DNA of 64,000 nucleotides, taken from positions 372,001 to 436,000 of the forward strand of contig CP050848.1 of the NCBI GenBank assembly GCA_014873095.1, read 5' to 3'. The notes beneath the pieces are model-generated. The model did not search any database, was not told where the DNA came from, and was given only the letters and a program-made list of their open reading frames with translations. Shown here one piece after another: positions 6,567 through 16,136 of this stretch. Source of the DNA: Planctomycetales bacterium ZRK34. Lineage in GTDB: Bacteria; Planctomycetota; Phycisphaerae; Phycisphaerales; Zrk34. Position 1 is the first letter of the stretch; each line of letters opens with the position of its first letter. A program made the translations under genes and the position numbers.

Positions 6567-6639
6567 GGCCCCGTAGCTCAGCGGTTAGAGCAGTCGACTC
6601 ATAATCGATTGGTCCCTGGTTCGAATCCAGGCGGGGCTA
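6567..6639 (+). tRNA. tRNA-Ile2 (anticodon CAU)
   Basis: A complete cloverleaf of 73 bases. The acceptor GGCCCCG pairs with CGGGGCT (first pair G-U), followed by TA at positions 8-9, D-stem GCTC/GAGC, anticodon stem GTCGA/TCGAT with loop CTCATAA, and T-arm CCTGG-TTCGAAT-CCAGG. Discriminator A; CCA is not encoded. The anticodon is CAT. The surrounding bases (GACTCATAATCG, then TTGGTC) match the minor isoleucine tRNA modified by lysidine rather than a methionine tRNA. An integrase fragment follows within 100 bases, so its 3' end may have served as an attachment site. Confidence 0.93.
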
Positions 6640-6915: not shown

Positions 6916-7274
6916 ATGATGAACATCGACGGGTGGGAGCACGCTTCGCGACGCATCGCGAGCGGCGTTGTAGCGATTATCGCGATCACCGACGATGGTA
7001 AAATCATGCTTGTGGAGCAGTATCGTCCACCGCTGGGGCGCCTGATGATTGAGTTGCCGGCGGGCCTGGCCGGAGACTTGACCGATGCGGCCGACGAGGA
7101 TCTGCAAACCGCCGCCGAGCGAGAGTTGCTGGAGGAAACGGGCTATCGAGCCGCGCGATGGAGACAGATCGGCGATGGTGCGAGTTCGAGTGGCTTGACG
7201 AACAACGCCGTACAGGACGCGCTGTCGACATCAAAGTTTACACGGTGCTGTCAAGCGCTACTCGAGGTGTGTAA
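6916..7274 (+). pseudogene. Nudix hydrolase (ADP-ribose pyrophosphatase-like), internally deleted
   Basis: The first frame begins as a Nudix domain: substrate strand IMLVEQYRPPLGRLMIELPAG, then a near-complete Nudix box ending AERELLEETGY. After about residue 85 (GDGASSSG) the frame stops making sense. The typical C-terminus of the family (EFEWLDEQRRTGRAVDIKVY) appears in another frame at 7182-7271 and ends at TAA 7272-7274. The middle of the fold, about 50 residues, is missing. This looks like a deletion joining the two halves out of frame, so no active enzyme is expected. The stop overlaps the ATG of kptA, which suggests they were once translationally coupled. Confidence 0.62.
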
Positions 7275-7828
7275 TGGACCAGAATCGAGAAGTTAAAGTC
7301 AGCAAGACGCTCAGTTACGTATTACGACACCGTCCGGACGTAATCGGGATCGAACTCGATGCGCAAGGATGGACACCGGTCGAGTCGCTGCTGCAGGCCT
7401 TGCAAGCCGCCGGCAAACATACCACGCGAGATGAGCTGGCGTATGTTGTGGAGAACAATCCGAAACAGCGTTTCGAGTTCGACGCCACCGGCGAACTGAT
7501 ACGGGCACGGCAAGGTCACTCAGTTGATGTGGAACTGGGGTACACGGCAAGCGTGCCGCCGGATGTGCTGTTTCATGGCACGGCAACACGTTTCCTCGAG
7601 TCCATCTTCGCTGAAGGATTGACGCGCCGGCGCCGGCACCATGTGCACTTGGGCACAGACAGCAAGCTGATGCTGGAAGTCGCGTCACGCCATGGGAGAC
7701 CCGCCCTGCTTCGCATCGACGCAGCGCAAATGCTTGCCGATGGCCATGCTTTTTTTGTAACAGCCAACAACGTCTGGCTCACAGAACACGTGCCACCGCG
7801 ATATATCGAACATGTGCAAGCTCAATAA
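7274..7828 (+). CDS. kptA: RNA 2'-phosphotransferase KptA/Tpt1
   Basis: A 184-residue, full-length Tpt1/KptA. The family removes an internal RNA 2'-phosphate using NAD+, giving ADP-ribose 1'',2''-cyclic phosphate. Signature motifs are all visible: KTLSYVLRHRP near the N-terminus, the RARQGHS motif with catalytic Arg/His, VLFHGTA, HVHLG and the C-terminal VWLTEHVPPRYI. The start has a GAGGTG site and overlaps the stop of the broken Nudix gene. It is convergent with rtcR, 90 bases away, placing it at the edge of the RNA-repair island. RtcB-type ligation does not leave a 2'-phosphate, so its substrate here is open. Confidence 0.92.
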   Translation: MDQNREVKVSKTLSYVLRHRPDVIGIELDAQGWTPVESLLQALQAAGKHTTRDELAYVVENNPKQRFEFDATGELIRARQGHSVDVELGYTASVPPDVLFHGTATRFLESIFAEGLTRRRRHHVHLGTDSKLMLEVASRHGRPALLRIDAAQMLADGHAFFVTANNVWLTEHVPPRYIEHVQAQ

Positions 7829-7919: not shown

Positions 7920-9509
7920 TTAACGCTCAATATCCGACCAACTCAGTTTAAAACGTGCGAGATATTTTCGCAGGCGGTCGGCGTCGTTGGTGCTTTTACG
8001 CAATTTGCGTGAAGCGGCGAACAACTGGCGGCCGGCTTCGGACATCGACTTGCATCGCCGGCAGATCGCGAGCACCTGAACCAGTTGCACGCGATCAAAC
8101 AAGTCCAGTTCGTCGATCTGTTGCGGCTGCAGCAGCGCATTAAGTCGTCGATCATCGGAACTGAGTCGCGGCGCCCAGGCCCGCTGCAGGCGAGTGATTT
8201 CCTGATCCACGACCTCGACGGTGATGCGACCGGCGGGCGACATGGTGGCCATACGACTGATCGCGGCGTTCAGGTCACGAAAGTTCGCCGACCAGGCGGC
8301 GTCCGGGGCGGTGGCGAACTTGATGAACCGCTCGGCGGCCTCCTTGTTGAACCGAACGCGCTTGCCGATGCGACCAGCCAGTTGATCTAATTCGTACGCC
8401 ACATTCGGCTCGATGTCTTCACGCCGCTTCGACAATCCCGGCAAGTCAAATGACCACAGATTGATCCGTGCCAGCAAGTCCTCACGAAACCGACCCGTCG
8501 CGACATCCGCCGACAAATTGCGATTCGTCCCGCAGATCAACTGGAAGTCGCTGTGGACTTCACGATCCGCACCAACCGGCAAAAACGCCTTCTCTTCCAC
8601 CGCTCGCAACAGCATCGTCTGTTCATCGAGGCCGAGTTCGCCGACTTCATCGAGAAACAACAACCCCTGGTCTGCTTCGGCGAGCAGCCCCTTGCGATCG
8701 GCCATAGCCCCGGTGAATGCACCACGCTTGTGGCCAAAAAGCGTACTCATCGCTGTGTCGCCGCGCAGCGTGCCACAGTTAACTTCAACGAACGACCCAC
8801 CCACCTGGCGCCGTATTTTTTTCAGATCGTAGATACGACGTGCCAGTTGCGACTTACCCGCACCGGTTGGGCCGGTCAGCAGAATCGGGTCATGTGAATG
8901 AATGGCCACGTGTTCGATCTGCTCAATCATTTGATTGAACGCTTCGTTGCGCGTGGCGATGCCGGACTTGAGAAAATCCTGGCTTTCACGCTGTTCAAGC
9001 GTAAACCGCTGGTGGATTTTGTCGTAGCGCGACAGGTCCAGATCGATGATGCGATACTCACCGACCGGGCCGTGCGATTTGCGTCGAGGCGGCGAAGTCT
9101 GAAGCAGTCGCCCCGGCAAGTGGCGCGACTCGGTCAATAGAAACAGACAGATCTGCGCCACGTGCGTGCCGGTGGTGATATGAATCAGGTAGTCTTCGTG
9201 ATCGGTATCGAACGTGTATTCCGCGGCGAAGTCATACAGCCCGCTGTACACATCGTCGAAGTCCCACGCATCGCGGAAGTTGATTTCGTGATGGCAGACC
9301 TGCGTCTCCGGTGAAACGCTGCGAATGTCTTCGGTCACAGTCTGCGCCAGTTTGCGAAACTTCTTTTCATACAGCAGATCAAACCGATCAACGAGCATCT
9401 GCTCATGCTGACAGATCGATACCGTCGGCCGCCAGAAGTTCCAACGATCCGCCTCGTCGCCACGATCAAGCGTGGGCCCCAACAAGCCGACGACGACATT
9501 ATTATTCAT
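7920..9509 (-). CDS. rtcR: RtcR, sigma-54-dependent activator of the RNA-repair operon
   Basis: A 529-residue protein. Residues about 1-170 are the RtcR-type sensory domain of the CARF class, with the conserved HITTGTH segment at 110-116. An AAA+ domain follows: Walker A GPTGAGKS (213-220), the sigma-54-contacting GAFTGA loop (263-268) and Walker B LLFLDE (283-288). The C-terminus (about 470-529) holds a helical DNA-binding region. In enterobacteria RtcR is activated by RNA damage products and switches on rtcBA. Here it is divergent from rsr, with a -24/-12 promoter between them. Transcription from its own start runs through AT-rich DNA with spaced direct repeats. Confidence 0.93.
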   Translation of the reverse strand: MNNNVVVGLLGPTLDRGDEADRWNFWRPTVSICQHEQMLVDRFDLLYEKKFRKLAQTVTEDIRSVSPETQVCHHEINFRDAWDFDDVYSGLYDFAAEYTFDTDHEDYLIHITTGTHVAQICLFLLTESRHLPGRLLQTSPPRRKSHGPVGEYRIIDLDLSRYDKIHQRFTLEQRESQDFLKSGIATRNEAFNQMIEQIEHVAIHSHDPILLTGPTGAGKSQLARRIYDLKKIRRQVGGSFVEVNCGTLRGDTAMSTLFGHKRGAFTGAMADRKGLLAEADQGLLFLDEVGELGLDEQTMLLRAVEEKAFLPVGADREVHSDFQLICGTNRNLSADVATGRFREDLLARINLWSFDLPGLSKRREDIEPNVAYELDQLAGRIGKRVRFNKEAAERFIKFATAPDAAWSANFRDLNAAISRMATMSPAGRITVEVVDQEITRLQRAWAPRLSSDDRRLNALLQPQQIDELDLFDRVQLVQVLAICRRCKSMSEAGRQLFAASRKLRKSTNDADRLRKYLARFKLSWSDIER

Positions 9510-9652: not shown

Positions 9653-9668
9653 TGGCACAGCCCGTGCT
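9653..9668 (+). promoter_or_regulatory. Sigma-54 (-24/-12) promoter of the rsr-rtcBA operon
   Basis: TGGCACAGCCCGTGCT matches the sigma-54 consensus TGGCACGnnnnTTGCA: the invariant GG (9654-9655) and GC (9666-9667) are spaced correctly, with 4 further matches around them. It points toward rsr, leaving a 5' untranslated region of about 45 bases if transcription starts near 9679. The divergent gene encodes a sigma-54 activator, which strongly supports the assignment. Confidence 0.8.
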
Positions 9669-9724
9669 ATAGGTGAGCCAACATCACGTCGGGCACGTTT
9701 GGCCCGGCAGAAAGGATGGCAACC

Positions 9725-11314
9725 ATGGCCAACAAGAAACTCTTCCAATCCATCGTCGGAAAACTCCTGCCGCGCACCGATGCGCTCAACGAAGAGCACG
9801 CACCGGCCTACCGCATGAGTTCGGAACACGCGCTGGCGCAGTTGGCCGCGACCGGCTGCCTCAACGGCACGTTCTATGCAACCGCCGAGACGCAACTGGC
9901 CCATGTGCTCGAACTGACCGAGCAGGTGGCACCCGAGTTCATCGCGCAGACGGCGCTCTACGCCCGCACGCAGGGTTACATGAAAGATCTGCCGGCGCTT
10001 CTGACGGCCGTGCTTTCGGTTCGCTCGCCGGGCCTGATGGCCGAGGTGTTTGATCGTGTGATCGACTCGCCGAAGATGCTTCGCAACTTTGTGCAGATCA
10101 TGCGGTCCGGCGCCGTCGGTCGCAAGAGCCTGGGTTCGATGCCCAAGCGCATGATCCAGCAATGGCTCGATCAGCGCAGCGATGTGCAACTGTTCATCGG
10201 TTCGATCGGGAACGACCCGTCGCTGGCCGATGTGATCAAGATGGTCCATCCGCGTCCGACCAATCCGCAGCGTGCTGCGATGTTGGGCTACATGATCGAC
10301 CGCGAGGTTGATCACGACATGCTGCCGGCTCTCGTGCGTGAATTCGAAGCGTACAAAACTGCGGACGATCGCGCGAGCCTGGACGTGCCCGATGTGCCGT
10401 TCCAGATGCTGACCAGTCTCGATCTGGGCCCGGCGCAGTGGAAAGCCATCGCAGCCCGCGCTTCGTGGCAGACCACGCGCATGAACCTGAACACGTTTGT
10501 TCGCCATGGCGTGTTCGAGCGCGACCCGGCCATGGTGCAGACCGTCGCTGATCGTCTGCGTGATCCGAAGTTGATCGCTCGCGCCCGTGCGTATCCGTAT
10601 CAACTGATGATCGCGTACATGGCGGCTTCGAAGGATCTGCCGAACCCGATCCGCAACGCACTGCAGGACGCGCTGGACACGGCTCTGGCGAATGTGCCGA
10701 AGATCGACGGAAAAGTCTACGTTTTTCCCGACGTTTCCGGCTCGATGCACAGCCCGGTCACCGGGTTCCGCAAGGGCTCGACCACCGCGGTGCGATGTGT
10801 CGACGTGGCGGGTCTGATCGCAGCCGCCGTGTTGCGAAACAACCCGAACGCCGAGGTGATCCCGTTTGAGACGGACGTGGTCGATCCGCGCCGCATGGAT
10901 CTGAATCCGCGTGACTCGGTGATGACCAACGCAACGAAGCTCGCTTCGCTGCCCGGCGGCGGGACCAACTGCTCGGCGCCGCTGCAGTGGCTCAACAGCC
11001 GCAAAGCGACTGGCGATCTGCTCATCTACGTTTCGGATTACGAATCGTGGATCGACGCACCGCACTTCGGCCGCTTTGGCGGATCGGCAACGCAGACGAT
11101 GCACCAGTGGAACGCATTCAAGCAGCGCAGTCCCCTGGCGAAGATGATCTGCATCGACCTGCAGCCGCATACGACGACTCAGGCCAAGGAACGTGACGAC
11201 GTGATCAACGTCGGCGGATTTTCCGATCGAGTGTTCGATCTGATCGCGACAGTCGGGTCGGGTCAGACCTCGGCCGGGCATTGGGTCCGACAGATTCAGA
11301 ACCAGCGTCTGTGA
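9725..11314 (+). CDS. rsr: Rsr, bacterial Ro60 (TROVE + von Willebrand A domain)
   Basis: A 529-residue protein. I chose the ATG at 9725, with AAAGGA 9 bases upstream, over an ATG at 9716 inside that site. Residues about 20-320 form the HEAT-like TROVE ring that binds Y RNA and misfolded RNA ends. The von Willebrand A domain follows, with its MIDAS motif DVSGSM starting near residue 336. In Deinococcus and Salmonella the ortholog binds Y RNAs and works with exoribonucleases or RNA repair. The gene is first in the sigma-54 operon and is followed directly by four Y-RNA-like genes and then rtcB, an arrangement akin to the Salmonella rsr-yrlBA-rtcBA locus. Confidence 0.93.
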   Translation: MANKKLFQSIVGKLLPRTDALNEEHAPAYRMSSEHALAQLAATGCLNGTFYATAETQLAHVLELTEQVAPEFIAQTALYARTQGYMKDLPALLTAVLSVRSPGLMAEVFDRVIDSPKMLRNFVQIMRSGAVGRKSLGSMPKRMIQQWLDQRSDVQLFIGSIGNDPSLADVIKMVHPRPTNPQRAAMLGYMIDREVDHDMLPALVREFEAYKTADDRASLDVPDVPFQMLTSLDLGPAQWKAIAARASWQTTRMNLNTFVRHGVFERDPAMVQTVADRLRDPKLIARARAYPYQLMIAYMAASKDLPNPIRNALQDALDTALANVPKIDGKVYVFPDVSGSMHSPVTGFRKGSTTAVRCVDVAGLIAAAVLRNNPNAEVIPFETDVVDPRRMDLNPRDSVMTNATKLASLPGGGTNCSAPLQWLNSRKATGDLLIYVSDYESWIDAPHFGRFGGSATQTMHQWNAFKQRSPLAKMICIDLQPHTTTQAKERDDVINVGGFSDRVFDLIATVGSGQTSAGHWVRQIQNQRL

Positions 11315-11387
11315 TGTTTGTCATCGCCGGCGTGCAGAGATCGCCATGCATCGCACACCACGGCGCATGGCCTTGCGGAAAGCGGAC

Positions 11388-11462
11388 GGGGCAGGCCGAA
11401 TGCCGTTGTGACTACATGGATGAAACCAATCGTGTCACGGCAACAACTCGTCGGCCTGCCCC
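11388..11462 (+). ncRNA. Y-RNA-like RNA 1 (short form, no tRNA module)
   Basis: A 12-bp perfect outer helix (11388-11399 with 11451-11462) encloses an internal loop, with ATGCC on the 5' side and nine bases (AACAACTCG) on the 3' side. An 8-bp inner helix follows (11405-11412 GTTGTGAC with 11434-11441 GTCACGGC), capped by TACATGGATGAAACCAATCGT. The same outer helix/internal loop/inner helix plan recurs in the next three RNAs, so it is probably the Ro60-binding stem. This one lacks D- or T-arms, similar in concept to a YrlB-type RNA. It begins 73 bases after the rsr stop. Confidence 0.75.
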
Positions 11463-11477
11463 AGACGGCGACAAAAC

Positions 11478-11588
11478 ACACCCGGCGAATGCCGGCGCGA
11501 GTACATCGGCAAGGCCCCTCGGGGCTTGCGGGTTCGAATCCCGCCCCGCTAAGCGGGAAGCTCACGCCAACCCTCGCCGTCGGGTTTT
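11478..11588 (+). ncRNA. Y-RNA-like RNA 2 with T-arm and capped acceptor-like stem
   Basis: Outer helix CCCGGCG (11481-11487) with CGTCGGG (11578-11584). Internal loop AATGCC on the 5' side and nine bases (AACCCTCGC) on the 3' side. Inner helix 11494-11501 with 11561-11568 (7 of 8 pairs). The inserted module has a short hairpin at 11511-11527 with a CTCG loop, a perfect T-arm at 11528-11544 (GCGGG-TTCGAAT-CCCGC) and a capped 5-bp stem CCCGC-TAA-GCGGG at 11545-11557 in the acceptor position. No D-stem can be formed. A TTTT follows the outer helix. An alternative outer pairing of 11464-11471 with 11574-11581 is possible but breaks the pattern shared with the others. Confidence 0.72.
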
Positions 11589-11605
11589 GACAAGTGAATA
11601 CCCCG

Positions 11606-11741
11606 AAACTCCCGGTGAATACCGGCTCGACTCCATGGCAAGAGCGTCCGCTACGGCGGAAGGTCGCGGGTTCAAAGCCCGCCGGTCCAACAAGGCCGTA
11701 GCTCAGAAATTGTCGAACCAACGCCTCGTCGCCGGGATTTT
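11606..11741 (+). ncRNA. Y-RNA-like RNA 3 with circularly permuted tRNA module opened in the D loop
   Basis: Outer helix CCCGGTGA (11611-11618) with TCGCCGGG (11729-11736), extended by AAA/TTT. Inner helix 11624-11631 with 11712-11719 (7 of 8). 3' loop AACGCCTCG, nine bases. The module reads in the order: D-loop part with GG (ATGGCAA), D-stem 3' strand GAGC (11642-11645), a 5-bp hairpin with TACG loop (11647-11660) at the anticodon position, variable AGGTC, T-arm 11666-11682, acceptor 3' strand CGGTC, loop CAACAA, acceptor 5' strand GGCCG, TA, D-stem 5' strand GCTC (11701-11704). All tRNA elements are present but the circle is opened in the D loop, where the Ro60-type stem is attached. TTTT follows the outer helix. 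Confidence 0.78.
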
Positions 11742-11760
11742 GACAAGCCCCTTCCGGGGG

Positions 11761-11900
11761 GCCGCGACGAATGCCCGTCGGACTACATGGATAATAACCA
11801 CCAGGTTGCGGGTTCGAGTCCCGTCGGTTCCATTGCGACATGTGGGACCGTAGCTCAAATGGATAGAGCAGGATGTCCGGCAAAAACTTGTCGTCGCGGC
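11761..11900 (+). ncRNA. Y-RNA-like RNA 4 (YrlA-like) with permuted tRNA module opened at the anticodon side
   Basis: Outer helix 11761-11770 with 11891-11900, 10 perfect pairs. Internal loop ATGCCC on the 5' side and AAAAACTTG (nine bases) on the 3' side. Inner helix GTCGGAC (11777-11783) with GTCCGGC (11875-11881). The module order is: small hairpin AACC-ACCA-GGTT, T-arm 11808-11824 (GCGGG-TTCGAGT-CCCGT), acceptor 3' strand CGGTTCC plus A, a 12-base cap, acceptor 5' strand GGGACCG (7 pairs, one G-U), TA, then a complete D-arm GCTC-AAATGGATA-GAGC. This matches the YrlA concept, in which the Ro60 stem replaces the anticodon arm. It ends 31 bases before the rtcB start, leaving room for the AGGAG site at 11921-11925. 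Confidence 0.85.
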
Positions 11901-11931: not shown

Positions 11932-13440
11932 ATGAACGACATCAACACCAAACCCCAACGCAAGCTCATCCCCACCGGCGAAGCGACGGCCATCCTGCCG
12001 CTGCCGCATGACGATGGCCCGCCCATCACCGTCATCGGCACCGAATCGATCCGCGCCACGTTCGATCAGACTACGCTGCAGCAGGCGATCAACTCGCGCA
12101 CCGCGCCCGGCGTCGAAAAGCTCGTACTCAATCCCGATGCCCACGTCGGCTACGGCGCGCCCGTCGGCTGCGCGATGGCTTCGCCTTCTCACATCTATCC
12201 CGGGCCGGTCGGCGTCGACATCAAGTGCTCGATGTCGCTGCTCCAACTCGACGTGCCCGGCGACGCCATTGAAGACCGCCGCACGCGCCGCGCCCTGATC
12301 GATGCGATCTGCGCTCGCGTGCCTACCGGCGCCGGCAAGGGCCAGCGCAACGTCCCCAAAGCCCGACGCGTGCACCCGCAGCTCGGTCGCGTGCTCGCCG
12401 CCGAAGGCGCCACCAAGGCCAATCTCGAGATGCTCGACATTCCCCGCCAGTGGCGCCACCGCTGCGAAGACGCCGCGCACGTCGGTCACGATGACACGAC
12501 CGACGCGCTGTACAACCGCCTCGACCAGCTCATCGCCACCGACCGATTCCCCGCTTTCGCCAACAAGATCGCCCAACTCGGCTCATACGGCGGCGGCAAC
12601 CATTTCGGCGAATGTGAAATCGTCCACGTCGACGACAACGATCGCGCCCGCACCGTCGCCGAGTCGTTCGGCCTCAAGGACGGCCGCGTCGCCTTCCTCT
12701 CGCACTGCGGTTCGCGCGGCTTCGGTCACAACCTCGCCATGGGCCAGTTCAAATCGCTCCAGCAACATTTCAACGACTGGTCCATCCCCTACCCCGGCGG
12801 CGACCGCGAGTTGTGCTACGCCCCGCTCGGCACCGACGAAGCCGACGCATATCTCGACGACATGGCCCTCGGCGCCAACTTCGCCACCATCAACCACATG
12901 CTCATCAACGCCCTCGTGCTCGAGGCCTTCCAGGAAGTCCTCCCCGGCGCGACCGGCCAGCTGGTCTACTTCATCTCCCACAACATCGCCCGCAAGGAGA
13001 TCGTCGACAACAAACCCATGTGGGTCATGCGCAAGGGCGCGACGCGCGCCTTCCCCGCCGGCCACCATGCGCTCAAGGACACCCCGTTCGCCAACACCGG
13101 CCACCCGATCCTGTTGCCCGGCGATCCGCAGCGCGGCTCCGCCGTCATGGTCGCCGACGCCGGCGCCGAGCAGTCCTTGTATTCGGTCAACCACGGCGCC
13201 GGCCGCGTGCTCGGCCGCCGCGCCGCCATCCGCAGCCTCGACCAGAAGTCGATCGACGCTTCGTTCGACGACAAGGACATCCTCACCAACTGCCGCAACT
13301 ACCCCCGCGACGAAGCCCCCGACGCCTACAAAGACTTCAACGAAGTCCTCCACAGCGTCAAATCCGCCAACCTCGCCACCGAGGTCGCGCGCTTACAAGC
13401 CCGCTTCGTCATCAAAGACGCCTCCAAGGCGGATGATTAA
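11932..13440 (+). CDS. rtcB: RtcB RNA ligase
   Basis: A 502-residue RtcB. The enzyme joins RNA 2',3'-cyclic phosphate or 3'-phosphate ends to 5'-OH ends with GTP and Mn2+. Metal and catalytic residues are visible: GVDIKC with Asp96 and Cys99, the GGGNHFGE segment with metal-binding His/Asn, HCGSRGFGH, and NHGAGR with the His421 expected to be guanylylated. The family normally has Cys or Ser before that His; here it is Asn. The start has a strong AGGAG site. It follows the Y-RNA-like cluster and is 3 bases from the HEPN gene. Confidence 0.95.
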   Translation: MNDINTKPQRKLIPTGEATAILPLPHDDGPPITVIGTESIRATFDQTTLQQAINSRTAPGVEKLVLNPDAHVGYGAPVGCAMASPSHIYPGPVGVDIKCSMSLLQLDVPGDAIEDRRTRRALIDAICARVPTGAGKGQRNVPKARRVHPQLGRVLAAEGATKANLEMLDIPRQWRHRCEDAAHVGHDDTTDALYNRLDQLIATDRFPAFANKIAQLGSYGGGNHFGECEIVHVDDNDRARTVAESFGLKDGRVAFLSHCGSRGFGHNLAMGQFKSLQQHFNDWSIPYPGGDRELCYAPLGTDEADAYLDDMALGANFATINHMLINALVLEAFQEVLPGATGQLVYFISHNIARKEIVDNKPMWVMRKGATRAFPAGHHALKDTPFANTGHPILLPGDPQRGSAVMVADAGAEQSLYSVNHGAGRVLGRRAAIRSLDQKSIDASFDDKDILTNCRNYPRDEAPDAYKDFNEVLHSVKSANLATEVARLQARFVIKDASKADD

Positions 13441-13443
13441 TCA

Positions 13444-14115
13444 ATGAGGCAGAAACCATCAAAATCACTTAAGGAATATTTTGAAGTAGTGGAAAACCAT
13501 GTTTCCACGTTACATTTGCATTGGAAAATGTATCGGGAGGTATTCGCGCACTCAGATCGGCGCATTAAAATTTTGAATGATGTCGCCCCTGCTCTATGGA
13601 GCACCATTCAGAGCATCATGCAAGACACTGTGTATTTAGGCATTGCACGGCTACTTGATTCAGAACATACCTGTGGCAACAAGAACATCAACATGCGCTT
13701 CATATTGAGAATGTATCAGCACGACAAACATCACACCTTCGCTACTCTTTTACAGAAACAGTTCGACATAGTAATTAAACATTTTGATCCTTTTCAATGG
13801 CATCGACATAAACGATTAGCGCACTCAGATGAGATTGCGTCGATGCAAGCAGAATTTACCCGACCGTCGCGAGCTCAAATCGAACTCATCCTAGAAGAAA
13901 TACGCTGCTTTATGAATATGGTGCGTGAGCATGAAGGCAATTGCCCCATGGCCTATGAACACATCCAATATCATGGGGGTGGTGACTCGTTAGCTTATTG
14001 GCTATCGCAAGGGCTTTGGTTAGATCAGCTTCGCATGCAACTATGGAAAGGCGATATATCACCTGTGCAAGTTGCCGAACTCATTAAGAATGAGCATAGA
14101 AATGTTGAATATTGA
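13444..14115 (+). CDS. HEPN-domain protein (AbiU2-like), putative RNase
   Basis: A 223-residue, mostly helical protein with the layout of AbiU2-type HEPN domains: an N-terminal helix pair with LHWKMYREVF, a DTVYLGIARLLD helix, and the HEPN Rx4-6H signature RHKRLAH (Arg121 to His127). HEPN proteins of this kind often act as RNases in defence or toxin systems; the activity here is inferred. It is clearly richer in A+T than rtcB and rtcA, suggesting later acquisition. Yet it sits inside the operon, 3 bases after rtcB and overlapping the start of rtcA by 14 bases. No antitoxin-like partner is adjacent. Confidence 0.72.
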   Translation: MRQKPSKSLKEYFEVVENHVSTLHLHWKMYREVFAHSDRRIKILNDVAPALWSTIQSIMQDTVYLGIARLLDSEHTCGNKNINMRFILRMYQHDKHHTFATLLQKQFDIVIKHFDPFQWHRHKRLAHSDEIASMQAEFTRPSRAQIELILEEIRCFMNMVREHEGNCPMAYEHIQYHGGGDSLAYWLSQGLWLDQLRMQLWKGDISPVQVAELIKNEHRNVEY

Positions 14116-15118
14116 CGGTTCACAGGGTGAAGGTGGTGGGCAGGTGTTGCGGTCGGCGTTGTCGCTTTCGATGGTGACGGGGCAGGGGTTTCGCATTGCG
14201 CGGATTCGGGCTGGGCGGAAGAAGCCGGGGTTGATGCGGCAGCATCTGACGGCTGTGGGGGCGGCGACGGCGCTTTGCGGGGCGACGGTCAGCGGCGATG
14301 CGATCGGGTCGACGGAGTTGACCTTTTCACCGGGGAAAGTTGAAGCGGGCGAGCATACGTTCAGCGTGGGCACGGCGGGGAGCACGACGCTGGTGTTGCA
14401 GACCGTGTTGCCGGCGTTGCTGACGGCCGGGGCGCCGAGCCGATTGACGCTGGAAGGCGGCACGCATAATCCGTTCGCCCCGCCGTTTGATTTTCTGGCG
14501 AAGACGTTTTTGCCGCTGGTCAACCGGATGGGACCGCGCGTCGAGGCGACGCTGGAGCGTGCGGGTTTTTATCCTGCCGGCGGCGGGCGGTTCACGGTGG
14601 AGGTGACGCCGGCTGCACAGCTCAGCGGCATCGAACTGCTCGAGCGCGGTGAGATCATGCGGCGATCGGTTCGAGGGATCGTGTCAAACCTGCCGCGCGG
14701 CATCGCGGAGCGTGAACTCAAAGCCGTGCGCAAGAAGCTGAGTTGGCCTGACGAGTGTTTTGAGGTGGTGGAACTGCGCGACGGGCACGGGCCGGGCAAC
14801 GTGGTGATGATCGAAATCGAAAGCGAGCAGGTATGCGAGGTGTTTACAGGATTCGGTGAAGTAAATCGCCCGGCTGAGGCGGTGGCCAACCATGCGACCC
14901 AGCAGGCGCAGCGTTATTTGCGTTGCGGGGCGCCGGTGGGTGAGTACCTGGCGGATCAGTTGCTTTTGCCGCTGGCGCTGGCCGGGGCGGGTGCGTTTGA
15001 GACCGTAAGGTTGTCACGCCATACCCGCACGCACATCGACCTGATCGGCCGATTCTGCGATGTATCGATCCAGACCGACGACCACGGCCGCGACGGGGCG
15101 ACGGTCCGGCTGGGGTGA
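14102..15118 (+). CDS. rtcA: RtcA RNA 3'-terminal phosphate cyclase
   Basis: A 338-residue RtcA. The start at 14102 gives the standard N-terminus (MLNIDGSQGEGGGQVLRSALS). The family makes RNA 2',3'-cyclic phosphate ends from 3'-phosphates with ATP through an enzyme-His-AMP intermediate. The glycine-rich GSQGEGGGQ loop, the PGLMRQHL segment and the C-terminal SRHTRTHID segment, which carries the adenylated His, are all present. The start overlaps the HEPN gene end, implying translational coupling. It gives RtcB cyclic phosphate ends and completes the operon. The next gene is convergent. Confidence 0.94.
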   Translation: MLNIDGSQGEGGGQVLRSALSLSMVTGQGFRIARIRAGRKKPGLMRQHLTAVGAATALCGATVSGDAIGSTELTFSPGKVEAGEHTFSVGTAGSTTLVLQTVLPALLTAGAPSRLTLEGGTHNPFAPPFDFLAKTFLPLVNRMGPRVEATLERAGFYPAGGGRFTVEVTPAAQLSGIELLERGEIMRRSVRGIVSNLPRGIAERELKAVRKKLSWPDECFEVVELRDGHGPGNVVMIEIESEQVCEVFTGFGEVNRPAEAVANHATQQAQRYLRCGAPVGEYLADQLLLPLALAGAGAFETVRLSRHTRTHIDLIGRFCDVSIQTDDHGRDGATVRLG

Positions 15119-15127
15119 ACTGTCGAA

Positions 15128-16136
15128 TCAGAACGACCCGCGACTGGCCCATCGTTGCGGGGTGAATGCGGGAATCGGTAACGGGGCGAGCAGTTCGCCT
15201 GCGTTGGGTTTGTACAACTTGCGGGGATCGAGCGATTCGCCGGTGCGGTAGAAATGTTCGAGAAAGGCGTAATCGGCATAGAACCAATCGCTGACCCAAC
15301 GGTCAACTCGGGCATCGGCTCAACGCCAGCTTCGCGCGCCAACTGCAAGGCGTAACACGTCGCGTCACGTTCGCACCGGCGATCGCACGGCACGTAAAAT
15401 CTCGATTGCTAAAAACCGACTTGTCGAGTTTATCGAACATGCTCGCCATGCCGCTGCCGATCGCGCCAGCCCATCCGGCGGCACACCGATCGGCCTGGCC
15501 GAGCTTTTTGAACTGACTCATCGCGTAACCGTTGTAGGTCTGATAGACCAGCTTCGACAGAAAGATCGATCGCATGTCGAGCATCTGCTGGGCGATTGGC
15601 GTCACCTGCTCGACGATCGGTGAGTAGAGCACTTCGAGCACATTTGGATTGGCCTTCAGAGCCAACTTCAGAAACTTTTCCAGTTCCCAGTAACATTCCT
15701 CGGTGTCGACGTTTTCCAACTGTTCGGGCACACCATAGAGCGACCACTGCATGTGTGCCGGCGGCAGGTAGACGCCGCGACGATCGGTGTCGGAACCATC
15801 ATGGGTCAGACCGTAGGCCTGCGAGCCGATCACACAGCGGTAGATCACGTGTTCAAACAAGTCGTACTCAACCAGCGGATCGTCATTCAGGTCGAATCCC
15901 GCCTGCTGGAAGTGTTTGAGCAGATGCAGGTCACGACGTTTGAGCGTGACTTCATCACCGCCTGGAAACCGCACGCCGTAACCATGTTCGGGATCGGCTG
16001 GCGCACGAACGATCACACCCGCCGCGCCCGCGGGATGGATGGGCCGGCCGTTCGAATCGCGCACCTCGACGCGGGTCACCACGGCCGTGCCGACAGGCAG
16101 GATCGGCGGCAATGATGTTTCTCGTGATTCATTCAC
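15128..16136 (-). pseudogene. Predicted nucleotidyltransferase (polymerase beta-like superfamily), C-terminus frameshifted
   Basis: The first 200 or so residues read as an intact nucleotidyltransferase: an N-terminal beta domain, then RCVIGSQAYGLTHDGSDTDRRGVY, with the Gly-Ser and double-Asp active site, and LVYQTYNGYAMSQFKKLG. After this the sense frame becomes implausible and stops at 15303. Typical C-terminal sequence resumes in two other frames: DATCYALQLAREAGVEP, then a longer tail beginning DRWVSDWFYADYAFLEHF and ending at 15128. At least two frameshifts are needed to join it all, from mutation or sequencing error. The 5' end overlaps the upstream gene by 4 bases. Nucleotidyltransferases of this type occur near rtcB in other genomes, to my recollection. 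Confidence 0.6.

Follow-up and report, generated by a model that had tools for sequence, protein, structure and literature searches.

An RNA-repair locus with a Y RNA array between rsr and rtcB

The window analyzed here is a 64-kb stretch of genomic DNA (G000:C1:372001-436000), and coordinates below are window positions unless a surveyed genome (G number) or locus (L number) is named. It carries an RNA-repair locus with the following features.

7274-7828: KptA-family gene, part of the RNA-repair locus
7920-9509, minus strand: rtcR, predicted RNA-repair operon activator of the sigma-54 type, oriented divergently to rsr (NCBIfam RNA_repair_RtcR, 813.6 bits; cutoff, 650)
9653-9668, plus strand: candidate sigma-54-like promoter (TGGCAC-N6-TGCT) upstream of rsr
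9716-11314, plus strand: rsr, Ro60-related ring protein (Pfam vWA_Ro60, 55 bits; TROVE, 28 bits)
11388-11900, plus strand: Y RNA array of four elements in the rsr-rtcB gap
11932-13440, plus strand: rtcB, RNA ligase (Pfam RtcB, 331 bits)
13444-14115, plus strand: HEPN AbiU2-like protein (Pfam PF18734, 53.9 bits)
14102-15118, plus strand: rtcA, RNA 3'-phosphate cyclase (Pfam RTC, 265 bits; NCBIfam equivalog above its cutoff)
15303-16136, minus strand: RlaP-family gene, part of the RNA-repair locus

The operon order is rsr, Y RNAs, rtcB, HEPN gene, and rtcA, and rtcR adjoins rtcB and rtcA, a gene content that points to an RtcR-type RNA-repair operon. The identification of the gene upstream of the array as Rsr/Ro60 in the original prediction was confirmed: the best solved relative of the 9716-11314 protein was PDB 2nvo (Rsr; E value, 4.4e-21), and the Pfam vWA_Ro60 and TROVE families were both matched, with the NCBIfam Rsr model giving only 68 bits (cutoff, 900). 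There was one rsr match genome-wide, and copy 1 of the array begins 73 bases from the rsr stop codon. The TGGCAC-N6-TGCT site at 9653-9668, which we take to be sigma-54-like from the consensus, was the sole match within the window (a mean of 0.16 was expected), and 14 of 100 shuffles of the window contained at least one match. The site is at most suggestive of a sigma-54 promoter for rsr, for which RtcR would be the sigma-54 activator. The position of the HEPN AbiU2-like gene between rtcB and rtcA raises the possibility that an RNase is encoded within the repair operon.

Two other readings of the array were rejected. A 195-amino-acid open reading frame on the minus strand (11296-11883) lies over the array, but it matched no Pfam family, and its GFEPA-like motif is explained by the fact that a translated T-arm yields such a motif. 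Ordinary tRNA genes were ruled out by ARAGORN and Rfam (gathering thresholds), which found none in the array; the only tRNA gene in the window is tRNA-Met at 6567-6639.

Four elements with a common basal stem and different inserts

The array consists of four successive structures, located as the original prediction had placed them.

11388-11462, plus strand: Y RNA copy 1, basal module with a short closing loop and without a tRNA part
11481-11584, plus strand: Y RNA copy 2 (type C), basal module, T-arm, and closed acceptor, without a D-arm
11609-11738, plus strand: Y RNA copy 3 (type B), predicted tRNA opened at the D-loop (model R1, covariation)
11761-11900, plus strand: Y RNA copy 4 (type A, YrlA order), Rfam YrlA (RF02553), 66.2 bits, E value of 6.8e-15

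All four copies follow one plan. An outer helix is followed by AAUGC or AAUAC, then by an inner helix and UACAU or UCCAU, after which come the insert and the returning strands. The 3' half of the plan comprises the inner-helix strand, a loop of 9 to 10 bases with CUCG or CUUG, and the outer-helix strand. This loop side had been given as nine bases in every copy; we counted 10 bases in copies 1, 3, and 4, and 9 or 10 in copy 2. The basal Ro60-type stem is thus common to the copies, and the inserts differ among them. Against 200 dinucleotide shuffles, the fold z-scores of copies 1 to 4 were -5.5, -2.1, -3.2, and -3.8 (copy 3 was folded as 11608-11739), and 0, 8, 0, and 0 shuffles, respectively, folded equally well or better.

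In copy 1, the outer helix (11388-11398/11452-11462) and the inner helix (11405-11412/11434-11441) flank a 3' loop at 11442-11451. By description rather than by comparison of sequences, this copy resembles YrlB and other short Y RNAs, which have no tRNA domain, in having only the basal module and a short loop. Copy 2 has an inner helix at 11495-11501/11561-11567, a T-arm at 11528-11544, and a closed acceptor at 11545-11557. A hairpin at about 11512-11527 resembles a class II variable arm; in folding, this hairpin and the T-arm compete with alternative pairings. Among eight type C sequences, of which one (L036) is wrongly aligned at the 3' end, 16 of the 29 pairs predicted had changed on both sides. 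The count of one short and three tRNA-like elements in the original prediction therefore stands, but the three are not of one kind, as no D-arm is present in copy 2, copy 3 appears to be permuted at the D-loop, and copy 4 has the YrlA order.

Because a first descriptor of the basal module was too permissive, we used a tightened one, which scored copies 1 to 3 at 35.5, 34.8, and 33.7, respectively, and lost copy 4, which was absent from its output at every threshold down to 15. Copy 4 is supported by its Rfam score of 66.2 bits, by the looser first descriptor (27.1, a score similar to those that the background reaches), and by the type A comparison described below.

Copy 4 and the YrlA order

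Copy 4 has its outer helix at 11761-11769/11892-11900, inner helix at 11777-11783/11875-11881, T-arm at 11808-11824, acceptor at 11825-11831/11844-11850, and D-arm at 11853-11869. Aligned with 11 other sequences, it is the only one of the four copies with the order T-arm, acceptor, and D-arm between the Ro-type stem halves, which is the order of YrlA. The Salmonella YrlA (RF02553; operon rsr-yrlBA-rtcBA) is like the array in its basal Ro-type module and in its rsr and rtcB neighbors, whereas copies 1 to 3 differ from it in order. In a covariance search with the YrlA model, proposed as a check in the original prediction, copy 4 (66.2 bits) fell just under the curated Rfam cutoff of 69 bits, which none of the four copies reached; copies 2 and 3 scored 30.0 and 22.9 bits (the latter match was partial and misaligned), and copy 1 gave no match up to an E value of 1. 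The solved structure of YrlA is described as superposing on tRNA by circular permutation (PMC11472068).

In the 12 type A sequences, both sides had changed in 19 of 28 pairs, and 97.9% of the cells were paired, versus 39.6 to 45.7% when the strands were slid; the D-stem was constant. Compensating changes between the four copies, on which the original prediction had relied, carry little weight alone, as the copies are diverged paralogues. The helices do covary in the loci of relatives, for type A (19/28 pairs) and for type B (12/27 and 22/27 pairs; see below), so the preservation of helices that had been anticipated there was found. By eye, YrlA-like RNAs were also seen off the rsr contig in L093/L191 (G149:C267) and L095/L192 (G178:C72).

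Copy 3 and a second permutation of the tRNA-like part

The original prediction had missed that copy 3 appears to be a tRNA permutation of its own, and its interpretation as a whole is partly supported. In copy 3 (here called type B), the Ro60-type stem would take the place of the D-loop; in YrlA, it takes the place of the anticodon stem. Within the Ro-type stem (outer helix, 11610-11617/11730-11737; inner helix, 11624-11631/11712-11719), the order is GG (11637-11638), GAGC as the second D-arm half (11642-11645), a hairpin with a UACG tetraloop at the anticodon position (11647-11660), AGGUC, the T-arm (11666-11682), the closed acceptor (11683-11687/11694-11698), UA, and GCUC as the first D-arm half (11701-11704). 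The GG, which presumably corresponds to G18 and G19 of tRNA, precedes the D-arm half in all 24 type B copies inspected by eye. Energy folding of copy 3 gave probabilities of 0.58 to 1.0 for the outer helix, five inner pairs, the hairpin, the T-arm, and the acceptor, 0.13 for the two remaining inner pairs, and about 0.05 for the D-stem.

In the eight sequences that define type B, both sides had changed in 12 of 27 pairs, and 94.0% of the cells were paired, versus 31.7 to 52.9% when slid. A second set of 16 sequences (14 named loci, L189, and L033), none of them used in training, showed both-side changes in 22 of 27 pairs and 95.1% of cells paired, versus 35.8 to 47.9% when slid, in an alignment (A3) that was fitted to model R1 and leans towards it; none of 500 shuffles was as high on any of five measures. 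The four-pair D-stem is nearly invariant: three of its pairs are constant in both sets, the sole both-side change occurs in two Labrys sequences, and two of the eight defining sequences break one pair. Since it hardly varies and forms at about 5% in the folding of copy 3, the type B D-stem rests on conservation and the analogy with tRNA.

Model R1 gave 108 bits on copy 3 itself, a training sequence (G000:C1:383612-383735). When the best candidates of a first look (at most nine per genome, under strict filters) were scored in 392 Planctomycetota genomes, at least 10 genomes had a match above 75 bits (77 to 127.5), the next score among the matches listed being 57.6. The 10 matches above 75 bits are the eight training sequences, G265, and G220. 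Nine of them fall in rsr loci, and the tenth (G265:C17) precedes an RtcB-family gene; the end of its contig shares a 127-base repeat with the end of the rsr contig. In 80 named bacterial loci (80 of at least 507 relatives), R1 reached at least 67 bits in 14 loci, a count that depends on the cut, as scores below 67 bits grade continuously into type A. By names as deposited in the case of the metagenome-assembled genomes, these loci belong to Planctomycetota (L110 and L111), Verrucomicrobiota (L128, L129, L166, and L178), a PVC bacterium (L159), Acidobacteriota (L130 and L155), Armatimonadota (L153), and isolates of Pseudomonadota (Acidovorax sp. A1169, L188; Labrys, L162, which is Labrys okinawensis, and L163; Rhabdaerophilum sp. 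SD176, L169). R1 found no type B copy at an E value of 1e-9 in 80 of the 88 viral rsr loci.

The loop at the anticodon position has 4 bases in 16 of the 24 type B copies (UUCG, GNRA, and others), 5 bases in 4, 6 bases in 2, and 7 bases in 2, the loops of L044, L033, L162, and L163 being read by eye. The small loop and the closed acceptor argue against decoding or charging of type B RNAs.

None of the three type B copies tried reached a cutoff in Rfam 15: L188 scored 22 bits with YrlA and 23 bits with tRNA (RF00005; cutoff, 29), copy 3 of the window scored 22.9 bits, and the copy of L041 matched nothing at an E value of 0.1. Model R1 thus finds RNAs that Rfam 15 misses in three cases tried. The literature searched describes bacterial Y RNAs through YrlA, i.e., as one tRNA mimic with one permutation. 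These comparisons suggest that type B is a second, widespread permutation in rsr loci that is new relative to Rfam 15 and the literature searched, and they further suggest a tRNA-like end that is replaceable and varies in its orientation on Ro60.

Arrays of Y RNA modules are common in rsr loci

Of 392 Planctomycetota genomes sampled, 46 had an Rsr match, which was clear in 39 (that of the window included); the 7 weak matches (E values of 3e-34 or worse) lie outside the locus set. We scanned 119 loci for the basal module, namely, the window, the 38 other clear Planctomycetota loci, and the 80 named bacterial loci (119 of 120 sequences; L189, without rsr, was excluded from the count). Within 1.5 kb of rsr, in 337 kb of sequence, the rsr strand had 329 modules with a score of at least 28 and the opposite strand had 4. 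Farther from rsr, there were 25 matches on both strands (521 kb). Given this background, single matches near a score of 28 may be due to chance; the plan overall is far above chance.

At least one module adjoined rsr in 111 of 119 loci, in agreement with the expectation that RNAs of the Y RNA type are encoded beside rsr. The numbers of loci with zero to eight modules were 8, 16, 32, 27, 22, 8, 3, 2, and 1, respectively; these counts include some chance matches and miss real copies, such as copy 4 of the window and two more in L041, where the descriptor found four copies and Rfam added two. Automatic type labels were rough ("B" was wrong by eye for L055 and L057), and type B counts were for this reason taken from R1. 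The original prediction regarded four copies as more than usual. With at least three modules in 63 of 119 loci and at least four in 36, four copies are ordinary, and such arrays are common. In the 80 viral rsr loci sampled from the 88 on viral contigs (L196 to L275), 36 had at least one module, with up to 6 per locus, and 97 modules were on the same strand versus 3 on the opposite strand.

Array members resembling 23S rRNA

In 8 of the 38 Planctomycetota rsr loci, one array member carries ATGACGGTCCTAAGGTAGCGA or a close variant of it, a segment of 23S rRNA around helices 69 to 71.

L033, 3202-3352, minus strand: 23S-like member
L056, 6275-6448, minus strand: 23S-like member
L058, about 3212: 23S-like member
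L059, 2988-3176: 23S-like member
L060, 6315-6499, minus strand: 23S-like member
L062, 3105-3303: 23S-like member
L064, 6231-6429, minus strand: 23S-like member
L067, about 6237, minus strand: 23S-like member

The longest identities with the 23S rRNA of the same genome were 29 bases (L059), 21 bases (L058), and 11 bases (L033); with the 23S rRNA of another genome (G181), they were 21 bases (L056 and L060), 20 bases (L062), and 13 bases (L067). Of 39 genomes, 22 have the core pattern, with 26 occurrences in total; 8 of these occurrences lie near rsr and 18 elsewhere, and all 10 examined of those 18 continue as 23S rRNA. The helix 69-71 signature was absent from the window array, the 80 named loci, and the 80 viral loci. 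Among 17 rRNA signatures searched in 124 sequences (the 38 and 80 rsr loci plus L189 to L194, two of the latter duplicating stretches of L067 and L058), it was the only one found within Y RNA arrays, the other matches lying elsewhere. With the order swapped, the two sides TTCCTTGTCGGG...GCATGAATGGCG of 23S rRNA (L276 to L279) look similar to the pair of Ro-type motifs CGAAUGCC / CCUUGUCG, a resemblance that may be due to chance.

Proposed function and alternative explanations

We consider it probable, from the sequence comparisons, that the segment encodes four Rsr partner RNAs in an RtcR-type RNA-repair operon, with their upper parts as alternative adaptors. The array has the features of Y RNAs: it adjoins rsr, and its basal stem with the internal loop is conserved (copies 1 to 3 by the descriptor, copy 4 by Rfam and alignment). 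The basal module would attach to the outer surface of Rsr. The upper part would be an interchangeable effector end that docks a tRNA-recognizing partner, for which PNPase is a conjectural example in this organism. Type A would grip the tRNA-like L at the anticodon end. In type B, the tRNA-like body would be held by the D-loop, near the elbow, leaving an unattached anticodon arm that ends in a small loop, and the same kind of body might thereby be shown in another orientation or to other partners. By analogy with YrlA, the four RNAs would be alternative adaptors for one Rsr. In YrlA, as described in PMC8394870, the basal stem tethers Rsr, and the tRNA-like part serves as the binding site of PNPase and as a substrate for modification by DusA and TruB; the operon rsr-yrlBA-rtcBA with RtcR is described in PMC7790460. 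The proposed RNA tether between Ro60 and a partner is like that of RYPER (Rsr-Y RNA-PNPase) of Deinococcus radiodurans, as presented in PMC8394870 and PMC4726728; the window locus differs in having several different upper parts, and its partner is only presumed.

Compared with tRNA (RF00005) and permuted tRNA genes, copies 3 and 4 are alike in arms and loop motifs, but in the array copies a loop closes the acceptor, and a Ro-type stem substitutes for the D-loop or the anticodon arm. As encoded, the copies have no free acceptor end, and a seven-base anticodon loop is absent from copies 3 and 4, which argues against a role in decoding. The same loop bears on an alternative that we regard as unlikely, i.e., that the RNAs are decoys or sensors that compete for, or report, tRNA-cutting nucleases, with the locus repairing the cut tRNA. 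The presence of rtcR, rtcB, rtcA, KptA-family, RlaP-family, and HEPN genes is consistent with this idea, and competitive inhibition of an anticodon nuclease is named as one possibility for YrlA by Hughes et al. (2020; PMC7790460). However, the seven-base anticodon loop, the usual cut site, is missing in 22 of 24 type B copies and is replaced by the Ro-type stem in type A, so that a decoy could block only by occupying the binding site, and YrlA is reported in PMC7790460 not to be a substrate of that nuclease.

It is less likely still that the elements act in cis as processing or stability signals in an rsr-rtcB mRNA rather than as separate RNAs. Their position on the coding strand in the rsr-rtcB gap would fit such signals, as would the result of a simple scan, which found no sigma-70-like promoter or plus-strand terminator inside the array; yet the arrays lie upstream of rsr in L054 to L066, two YrlA-like elements were seen by eye off the rsr contig (L093 and L095), and YrlA is described as an RNA of 90 to 150 nucleotides (PMC8394870). 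A reading of the copies as degenerate or permuted tRNA genes that have no function with Ro60 is highly improbable: tRNA-like T-arms and acceptors are present, and an N-CCA kept in some type A copies points to descent from tandem tRNA genes, but ARAGORN found no tRNA gene, the basal module that surrounds the tRNA part shows both conservation and covariation, and this module also occurs with no tRNA part in copy 1 and other short copies.

A broader proposal, which we offer tentatively as quite possible, is that bacterial Ro60 works with sets of adaptors whose upper ends show parts of the translation machinery, each in its own orientation (the anticodon-opened tRNA of YrlA, the D-loop-opened tRNA of type B, which has lost its anticodon loop and comes from records named for five phyla, T-arm/acceptor minihelices, and, in some Planctomycetota, RNAs with 23S pieces of 11 to 29 identical bases), and that such sets may stem from Ro-binding halves spanning the junction of tandem tRNA genes.

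Possible traces of tRNA genes in type A copies

Traces of a tRNA 3' end were sought in 113 type A copies with a seven-base acceptor strand and six or seven pairs (copy 4 of the window was added by hand). N-CCA stands exactly behind the acceptor strand in 16 of the 113 copies. The other CCA offsets tested gave 0 to 3 copies, except for an offset inside the acceptor strand (35 copies), where CC-A arises by composition. Judging from the sequences, we infer that Y RNAs may descend from two tandem tRNA genes, with the Ro-type stem halves in the same loop of each; if so, types A and B would differ only in the loop used. Examples with CCA one base past the acceptor strand are L032 (6190), L041 (5890), L042 (5646), L046 (5726), L165 (5664), and L182 (5676).

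Some other rsr loci also have tRNA-related features. The inserts of L044 (3633-3766, minus strand) and L059 (3580-3714) look by eye like what we take to be leucine-type tRNAs, that of L044 with a long variable arm. The insert of L052 (5980-6114) looks opened in the T-arm, with a D-arm that is presumably of the glutamine type. The rsr locus of L033, which is of the window's family, lies in a dense tRNA array with 23 tRNA matches in 9.6 kb.
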